Source: Methyloceanibacter superfactus (GTDB taxonomy: Bacteria; Pseudomonadota; Alphaproteobacteria; Rhizobiales; Methyloligellaceae). From it: 64,000 nt of DNA. Below, one piece after another: positions 7,463-10,541 of this stretch. The first letter of the stretch is position 1. Every line of letters begins with the position of its first letter. Both the position numbers and the translations under genes were made by a program. The notes beneath the pieces are model-generated. The model was given only the letters and a program-made list of their open reading frames with translations, did no database searches and was not told the origin of the DNA. The stretch covers positions 62,001-126,000 of the forward strand of contig NZ_LPWF01000016.1 in the NCBI RefSeq assembly GCF_001723305.1, read 5' to 3'.

Positions 7463-10400
7463 TCAAGGCACGCTCGCTCTGGCGGTCTGGCCCACCTTGA
7501 GCTTCCAGTTCTCGATAGGGCCAGGGCCAGTATCGAGCTTGCCGGCCAGGTAATAGAGCCGTCTGGTATCTTCGCTCTTAGCAGTACAGAAGCGATCCTG
7601 CAGGAAAAAGGGCGGAATGGCCTGATAGTAAAGAGTTGCGCGGACCTCGGCAGGCTCGCCGGGGATGTCGGCTAAGGGGATTCGGTAGAGAATCGCGTCC
7701 TCGCCGTCGCCCCCGGCTTTGCCATAGTCGGGGTCGCCGCCGGTGCCGACCGGGGCGACCTCCTCGGCGAGGTCCGGCTTGGCGCCCAGCGCCGTGGCGA
7801 TCGCGACGCGCTCGTCGTGCCCCAGGAAGCCGTGGGGCAGGAGCCGGTTGTCCTTCACCTTGGCGCAGATGGAGAGGAAGCTTGAGGTGAGCGGCGCTTC
7901 GGGCTCGGCGCCGAGGCCGCAATGCGGGGTGTCCGTATCGGCGGGGCCGGCGGCGAGCTCCTGATAGATCTGCGCTTGGCTCTGCTTGCCGATGACCTGG
8001 TAATGGGGCTGATGGGCCCGGGCGCCGGGGTCGATGCGCGCGCCGCAGTTTGGCGTCCACCATGTCTCGCCGGCGATCGCCGCTCCGGTCTCGTCGACGA
8101 TCACGCCGGTTTTGTTCGTGCGCCCCGAAGCCCACAGCACTTGGCCGAGCTTGTCGCGTACCTCGAAGGCGATGAAGGCGCGGCGGAAGGCGACGCCGGA
8201 GGGGAATTTGTGGCCCGCCTTGTTGGCGACCTTGACCTCGGCGGTCAGCGTGTCGCCGTCGCGCGTCACCGCGCCGACATCGATCGCGGCGGCGCGCGCG
8301 GCCTGCTCGAGCATGGCGCGCTCGGTCGCGATCAACGGGTCGACCCCGCGCCGCGACGGCAGCATCGGGTCTTCCGTGCGGATGCCCAGCACTTCGGGGA
8401 ATTGCTGCGCCATCTTGGTGAGGTAGAGATTGAGCCCGACCAGCGTGTGCTTGGCGAAGCCTTCGCGTGGCTCCAGGTCGATGTCTTCCGGCGGCAGGGT
8501 GTACTCGGCCTGCGGGAAGGACGTGTATTCCTGGATGGTGGCGATCTTGCTGCGGTAGGGCTTGCCGCGCGCATCGGTCTTGGGCATGTGGCAGCCCTGG
8601 CAGGATTGCGCCTTGGCGCCGGCGCCCCCCGGCAGCGCACCGTCGACGGTCTTGCCGGTGCGGTAGCCGGAGAAGGCCCATTCCGGATAGGTCGCCTGCT
8701 CGTAGGTATGGCCGATGATCTCGCCGCGGTGGAGCACGGGCAGATGGACGGTGTGGCAGCTCGCGCAGATCTCCGAGCTCTTCACATGCTCGCTATGGGC
8801 GGCGGCGAGGCCGGTCGCATGCTCCATGGGCTTCTTCTTCGGGTCCTTAAAGGGGCCGAAGATCTCCCCGGGATCGGCCATCAGGAAATTGCCGGTGAAG
8901 GTCTTGGCGAGGCCGCTATGCCCCGGATTGGTGACCTGCTGCCGCGCTTTCACGCAGGCGTTTTGCCGCGCGTCCGCGACCTTCTCCGAGGCGTCCTTGC
9001 CGACCACCATGCCGTGGCAGGTGGTGCAGGAGACGCCGTCGCGCCCGAGTGCCGCGTAATGGGCGAGCCCGGCGGTCGGGTTGCCGGCCGGGTAGGGGAC
9101 GGCATTGAGTGCGTCGCGGGCGAGCGGCACGCACTGCCCGGACTCTGCGTTCTTGTCGATGGCGTGCTGCCGATGGCCCTGCACCGCATGGCAGCTCATG
9201 CAGGTGTCCTCGATGAGCGTCTTGGCCTCCGGGTGGAAGGTCTCGATCTCACTTGCGAGTTGAGCGAAGAAAATGGGGTCGCGACCGCTCATGCCCATGG
9301 GCGATTTCCGCCAGGTGCCGTAGGGCGAGATATTGGTCAGCTTCGGTTCGGGCGCCGGCTCGGTCATGTGGAATTGCAGGCCGGTGCCGCCGGCGCTGTG
9401 GCAGCCGAGGCACTGATCCGAGGTGACGAAGCGCGATGCCGCGGGTGGGCTTGCCCGCGGGGAACCACACATGATCGTAGGTCTCCGACGGTAGCTTGGC
9501 GACCGCGGTCTCCGATGACGGCGCGCCGGCGAGCAGCTGGAAGATCTCCGAGAACTCGTTGCTATAGGGTTTCCGGCTGCGCATGCGGCGGTTGACGGCG
9601 GTGGTGGCACGCTCCACCTCGACCTCCTCGGTGGCAACGTCCTCGTGATGGGTGTGGAACTCAGGCTGGATGACGCTTCCGCCCTTGCGTTGGCCGAGGC
9701 GCGTCTCGCCGCCCTTGAAGTGGTCCTCCAGAAAGAAGTCCTGGCTGAGAAAGGTGATCGGCTCGCCGGGCTCGCCCTTGATGTTGCGCAGCGAGGCGAA
9801 GGTCTGGTTGCCGCGCGCCGATGCGTGGCAATTGGTGCAGTAAAGACCGAAGCCGGTATTGGGGTAGCCGTTGGCGGAATTGGCGGGCCAGGTCGGCGCC
9901 CAGTCGCCTTTGCCCCAGCCGAACCAGCCCCAGAACCAGCCGTCATAGGAGGCCTTGGCGTCGCGTACCATGATGGCGCCGCCATTCTCCGGGAACAGAT
10001 GGATCAGGGGGGCGTCCTTGCAATGGGAGGTGGGCGGCGGGAACATCTCCTTGACCATGATGGCGCCATCGGGGACCGGCGCCTCGGACACGGGCGCGCG
10101 CTCGTCGCCTTCCGCGCGGTTGGCCTTGAGCCATGCCACCATGTCGGGCGAGTACCAGACGACGGCCGGCGCGTGGGTGCCGTGATACGCGCCCGTCCAC
10201 TTGCCGTTGTGGAACACGCCGACGAAGGGGCCGGTGTCGCGCATATGTTTGTCGCTCTTCCAGCCCGACGCCTCGCGGCGATGACAATAGTTGCGCAGGA
10301 AGGCGGCGAGCTTCGCCTCGTATTGATCGTGGGGAAGCGCGCTCGGCTTGCGCACCGCCGCTTCGAGCTGATCGCAAAGTGCCTCGTCGGCCGGCACCAA

Positions 10401-10541
10401 AGGCTCGCCCCGCTCAACGGGGCAGGTCGGGGCGGCCAGCGCGCTGCCGCAGGACAAAAGGGCCAGGCATGCGGCTCTCGACAATTTACGCAGTGCGGAA
10501 ATCAAGTCGGGCACCAATCCTTCGACGGGGGTGAGGAGCAT
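7463..10541 (-). CDS. Multiheme cytochrome c with N-terminal cytochrome P460 domain, frameshifted
   Basis: About 1,025 residues with a signal peptide ending GSALAA. The first 290 residues resemble cytochrome P460: a central PDGAIMVKEMF segment, NGGAIMVRDAKASYDGWFWG and a terminal CTNCH heme site. Five more heme sites follow (CLGCH, CMSCH, CTTCH, CASCH, CQGCH; 9398-9412, 9188-9202, 9014-9028, 8753-8767, 8588-8602), then a heme-free C-terminal region of about 370 residues containing an immunoglobulin-like stretch (AEVKVANKAGHKFPSG). The first heme site is at 9825-9839. The frame breaks near 9445; restoring one CG in a GCGCGC run joins PTRGIA to RFVTSDQCLGCH. P460 proteins oxidise hydroxylamine or nitric oxide; a periplasmic redox enzyme passing electrons through the attached hemes is inference. 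Divergent from the OPT gene. Confidence 0.8.

Follow-up and report, generated by a model that had tools for sequence, protein, structure and literature searches.

A P460-pentaheme cytochrome fusion gene of Methyloceanibacter superfactus belongs to a widespread, uncharacterised family

Characterised P460-fold proteins are small, carry a single heme, and pass electrons to separate carriers. Incorporation of a P460-type heme into a multiheme relay is known from HAO, whose scaffold is unrelated to that of the fusion described here. In P460 proteins, a distal carboxylate serves as the proton acceptor and is required for NH2OH oxidation, and P460-fold pockets that are hydrophobic and lack it are proposed gas binders (PMC11928373). 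The c552-like pentaheme cytochromes, ExtKL, and Gsu2801 have been grouped as the "PHC" family in a study of cable bacteria, whose PHCs are fused to truncated hemoglobins (PMC11976967).

We analyzed a 64,000-nucleotide stretch of the M. superfactus genome (hereafter, the window). A gene for an exported hexaheme P460-pentaheme fusion protein of approximately 1,025 residues was located at 7463 to 10541 on the minus strand, as were all coding features below, based on open reading frames and on relatives in which it is intact in a single frame. Two overlapping frames carry the gene in the window. The frame at 9249 to 10541 encodes a signal peptide followed by a domain that ends in CTNCH, and that at 7463 to 9985 encodes five CxxCH sites followed by a long tail devoid of heme sites. 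By inspection, the N-terminus of the fusion protein is a Sec-type signal peptide (LALLSCGSALA/APTCP). The sequence-only reading had proposed one protein comprising a P460-like domain with its own CTNCH and five more CxxCH sites, and all six sites were located by their motifs: heme 1 in the P460 domain (CTNCH, 9825 to 9839), whose Cys and His are invariant in 74 relatives, heme 2 (CLGCH, 9398 to 9412), heme 3 (CMSCH, 9188 to 9202), heme 4 (CTTCH, 9014 to 9028), heme 5 (CASCH, 8753 to 8767), and heme 6 (CQGCH, 8588 to 8602). Shuffling the same residues gave a mean of 0.02 such sites and a maximum of one. All six CxxCH sites are invariant among the relatives.

A degenerate extra heme at QCVPLARD or ACVKARQ was considered and rejected, as the relatives G182 and G304 share these Cys residues without a CxxCH; they therefore look like structural Cys. 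Several extra conserved Cys outside CxxCH were also seen in the subfamily of the window protein (window 7466-10541, L115, and L116), whereas the main family is without them. These are probably disulfides.

The N-terminal domain (9771 to 10334; residues 1-188 of P0003, the input for structure prediction, in which the frame was read through by a single four-letter step) was identified by Pfam, profile, and fold comparisons. PF16694 (Cytochrome_P460) matched the window protein with an E-value of 8e-5 and 23.5 bits, under the 27-bit cut-off of the family. The same model matched 30 of 31 relatives' domains (best E-value 6.8e-11), a comparison in which the window sequence ended before its heme. When a profile of the domain was compared with the PDB, the top matches were M. 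capsulatus P460 (6hiu and 9hrk; E 4e-6). PDB searches with single sequences gave nothing useful, and profiles were needed; the match from an hhalign comparison with just two P460 sequences was weak and partial but still aligned the Lys discussed below.

Structure prediction of the repaired protein found both a P460 fold and the fold of 5ze8, a pentaheme cytochrome described below. The AlphaFold model of the window protein had a mean pLDDT of 76 and a pTM of 0.85, and that of an intact Methyloceanibacter relative had values of 86 and 0.86. The P460 part of the window model matched 7ead (Z 8.8), 6amg (7.1), and 2je2 (6.8); that of the intact relative matched 7ead with Z 9.3, and the Z values for 6amg, 6hiu, and 2je2 were 6.8-8 across both models. 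By themselves these Z values would be middling, but the matches extend over the entire domain and are in line with the profile comparison. The domain has a beta-sheet fold around one c-type heme, with the CxxCH near the domain C-terminus. Thus, both profile and fold identify a genuine P460/cytochrome c'-beta domain at the N-terminus, and the P460 similarity noticed in the sequence-only reading was not spurious. A stand-alone cytochrome P460 of 268 residues is encoded in the same genome (L117:7264-8070; G000 contig 23, approximately 52.3-53.1 kb) and scores 89 bits against PF16694; it has a Lys and apparently no carboxylate.

Hemes 2-6 and the region downstream of them form a second module (7466 to 9461), assigned by Foldseek, fold, and profile comparisons to the Thermochromatium-type T. 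tepidum c552/PHC fold. Foldseek matched 5ze8, the T. tepidum penta-heme cytochrome c552, with E-values of 2.7e-9 for the window protein and 6.7e-9 for the intact relative, and no other match was below 0.001. Superposition on 5ze8 gave Z 16.9 for the window and 19.6 for the intact relative, over 350/385 residues at 2.9-3.2 Å (rmsd 3.2 Å for the window). A full-length profile matched 5ze8 by sequence through the GHRFPSGVGFRR motif with an E-value of 3.9e-4. In both models the alignment begins at heme 2 and runs to the end of the protein, which identifies the C-terminus as the beta-sandwich of the pentaheme c552/PHC fold (7466 to 8296, with strands from approximately residue 680 of P0003). The long heme-free C-terminus noted in the sequence-only reading is thus part of this fold, and the module has the five c-type hemes and the C-terminal beta-sandwich of 5ze8. 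Fold matches to transglutaminases, glycoside hydrolases, and similar proteins covered the beta-sandwich only; they were taken to reflect a common fold and rejected.

The PHC module occurs alone in Sulfurovum mangrovi (555 residues). Together with the stand-alone P460 of this genome, this indicates that the layout is a fusion of two modules that also exist separately. A His in the low-confidence linker between the modules (H294 of L020) is conserved in 74 of 74 relatives, and could be a heme ligand bridging the two.

The frame breaks inside a perfect 7-bp inverted repeat (CCGCGGG...CCCGCGG, 9439 to 9460). One explanation is that this organism has two genes, or a pseudogene, broken at approximately 9445. 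The break is present in the assembly, and a contig of the related genome G008 breaks at the same site. However, the G008 frame is broken in the opposite direction, which argues against a shared, inherited or programmed shift and for a hard-to-sequence site or independent lesions. Programmed frameshifting was rejected, since the window and G008 would need opposite shifts. The dN/dS ratio between the window and G008 was approximately 0.25 for the N-terminal part and 0.22-0.26 for the C-terminal part, which places both halves under purifying selection. The gene is also intact elsewhere. G182 and G304, relatives from the same order, have single open frames with 58% (over the whole length) and 48% identity to the window protein, respectively, and 73 of 80 fetched loci have an open frame of approximately 820-1,100 residues, nearly all with exactly six CxxCH sites. 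The isolate Paracoccus seriniphilus has a 1,003-residue open frame annotated as "hypothetical protein" (WP_089344214.1).

The neighboring OPT transporter gene is likewise split in the window (10614-10946/10808-12346) and is one frame in five relatives. Other conserved window genes also look split, namely those of a penicillin-binding protein (2241-3014/2705-4225), a metallopeptidase-like protein (5440-6507/5940-6971), and an asparaginase-like protein (15117-15647/15467-16183). These split genes suggest an error-prone assembly. The split of the fusion gene is probably a sequencing or assembly error, and we consider two genes or a pseudogene very unlikely.

At least 73 intact P460-PHC fusion genes were found across eight or more phyla. 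The relatives came from Planctomycetota, Acidobacteriota, Verrucomicrobiota, Bacteroidota, Myxococcota, Gemmatimonadota, Alpha- and Gammaproteobacteria, SAR324, and Vulcanimicrobiota. Their loci were picked by two peptide patterns, EWRWSPM and HPAVR[VM]YY, so that conservation inside these patterns is partly built in; the CxxCH sites and the cross-link-register Lys lie outside both. In a tree of the relatives, the window protein branched deeply with G182 and G304 (support 100) as a subfamily of its own, apart from the copies found in other genomes of Methyloceanibacter and Methyloligella. The fusion gene is patchy within the host genus, suggesting gain or loss by transfer.

The sequence-only reading had also named gene context in relatives as a check: over the fetched loci, no neighborhood was conserved outside close kin, and no N-oxide-supporting neighbor was seen. 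In P. seriniphilus, the region around the fusion gene (L013:12585-18900) includes a plasmid-borne NQR operon together with genes for an ApbE flavin transferase and a cytochrome c3 family protein. Paper searches, which mostly covered literature outside subscription journals, returned no description of the P460-PHC architecture, and no mention of a fused or multidomain P460 was found in a review of the superfamily (PMC11928373). The sequence-only reading named no characterised protein with this layout, and none was found here. The P460-PHC fusion is a widespread, uncharacterised family and not a one-off.

We compared the heme pocket with those of characterised P460 proteins. In profile alignments, Lys164 (10050 to 10052) is in the register of the cross-linking Lys78 of M. 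capsulatus P460 (McP460) and Lys70 of N. europaea P460 (NeP460), and all 74 relatives keep this Lys. The alignment suggests that the P460 heme probably has a lysine-porphyrin cross-link. The column of NeP460 Arg44 contains or is near an Arg or Lys in most relatives and, provided that the register is correct, is Val in the window protein. The cross-link is not formed in NeP460 Arg44Ala (PMC11928373); lacking an equivalent of Arg44 in this register, the window protein may not form it. His123 (10173 to 10175) lies approximately at the position of the distal "capping" residue, with a register uncertain by 1-2 residues. It is present in all relatives, an invariance that is partly built in because one of the search patterns started with this His.

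The proton-accepting carboxylate (McP460 Asp102/NeP460 Glu96) is absent from the window protein, which has Ala189 (9975 to 9977) in this register. The position is also Ala in G182 and G304; among the 74 relatives, it is Thr in 63, Asp in eight, and Ala or Ser in three. Of the P460 catalytic site proposed from the sequence, the cross-linking Lys is present but the catalytic carboxylate is replaced by Ala, which leaves the site putative. The eight Asp proteins form one Pirellulales clade with full support, and their Asp is in register with McP460 Asp102 (L036, L039, L041, L042, L043, L045, L046, and L047). A gene for a ferritin-like protein is found one or two positions upstream in seven of these eight loci.

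These residues bear on the possibility of a true hydroxylamine oxidase. In that case the P460 heme, cross-linked through Lys, would oxidize NH2OH to NO or N2O and the relay would remove the electrons, making the protein a convergent analogue of HAO. The invariant Lys and the Asp of the Pirellulales clade are in line with this function, and HAO likewise combines a P460 heme with a multiheme relay (PMC11928373). However, the Ala of the window protein resembles Ala131 of the P460 of N. sp. AL212 (NsP460), which does not oxidize hydroxylamine unless this residue is changed to Glu (PMC11928373), and most relatives have Thr. Profiles of amo and hao found no match in this genome, in a search run without a positive control that says little. 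PF13447 (octaheme HAO) was not among the Pfam matches of the window protein at E ≤ 10, where HMMER filters drop weak matches, and the protein has six CxxCH sites versus eight for HAO. The missing carboxylate makes NO-type ligand chemistry more likely than hydroxylamine oxidation for the window protein, and we regard the latter as unlikely. The Asp-bearing Pirellulales clade is, from its residues, a candidate hydroxylamine oxidase.

Alternatively, the protein may be an extracellular or trans-envelope electron conduit of the ExtKL/PHC kind, in which the P460 domain would add no more than another relay heme, or a sensor or gate operated by a ligand. Most of the protein consists of the PHC module, whose closest relationship is to PHC/c552, and extracellular electron transfer in Geobacter and cable bacteria has been linked to members of the PHC family (PMC11976967). 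In contrast, across several phyla the P460 domain has without exception retained its Lys and heme, and no neighbors of any kind recur among the fetched loci. Also counting against a conduit, many hosts are, to our knowledge, aerobic heterotrophs not known for extracellular electron transfer. We consider it somewhat unlikely. A P460-fold peroxidase, or another oxidoreductase whose substrate is not an N-oxide, would fit the lack of N-cycle context among the fetched loci, and a title cited in PMC11928373 presents a Met variant of cytochrome c'-beta as a peroxidase mimic. Nothing positive points to peroxide, and this function is quite unlikely.

We favor, with a probability of approximately 0.4, a P460 heme that handles N-oxides (NO) or binds a ligand and is wired to a five-heme electron relay. 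The exported protein would be periplasmic or at the surface. Its N-terminal P460-fold heme, probably lysine-porphyrin cross-linked, would have one proximal His and a distal pocket accessible to small ligands. It would be followed by the T. tepidum c552/PHC-type module holding five hemes and the beta-sandwich. The ligand bound by the P460 heme would be a small nitrogen oxide, with NO the prime candidate, or some other small molecule. The heme would exchange electrons with the relay, which would in turn donate them to, or receive them from, a carrier that is soluble or quinol-linked. We infer the heme-to-heme contact, the ligand, and the direction of electron flow; the predicted models were built without hemes. 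The built-in electron wire of the sequence-only reading is plausible as a hypothesis.

A bolder proposal, which we put forward tentatively as rather unlikely, is that these are widespread hexaheme enzymes in which a Lys-cross-linked P460 is hard-wired to a PHC relay, coupling N-oxide chemistry to envelope electron transfer outside nitrifiers, with the Asp-bearing Pirellulales proteins as a new class of hydroxylamine oxidase. Most hosts are not known to nitrify, and a conserved fusion on a scaffold unlike that of HAO would allow tests of whether N-oxide chemistry at P460 hemes extends far more widely and whether catalytic heads are served by the pentaheme c552/PHC family. The natural division into clades with Asp, Thr, or Ala offers a structure-function series.

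The window protein shares with the P460/cytochrome c'-beta superfamily (PF16694; NeP460 2je2, McP460 6hiu, NsP460 6amg, and TtCP-beta 7ead) the fold, a single CxxCH near the domain C-terminus, the Lys in the cross-link register, and the VKD and GW motifs around the heme. Members of that superfamily are small, single-heme proteins, whereas the domain of the window protein is joined to a pentaheme module, and the position of the catalytic carboxylate is Ala in the window protein and Thr in most fusion relatives. HAO is alike in design, with a P460-type heme and relay hemes in one polypeptide, but it is octaheme, has a Tyr cross-link, and is structurally unrelated (see also PMC11928373), and it gave no sequence or fold match here. 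T. tepidum c552 (5ze8) and the PHC family (ExtKL, Gsu2801, and the sPHC/lPHC of cable bacteria) likewise have five CxxCH sites and a C-terminal beta-sandwich, in which the PHC family and the window protein carry a related GHRFPSGVGFRR/PHAMPTGAPFR motif. No P460 domain has been reported in the PHC family, and its cable-bacteria members carry truncated hemoglobin domains instead. By analogy, the truncated hemoglobin-PHC fusion is a parallel to the P460-PHC fusion, in which another gas-binding heme domain would sit on the same relay.
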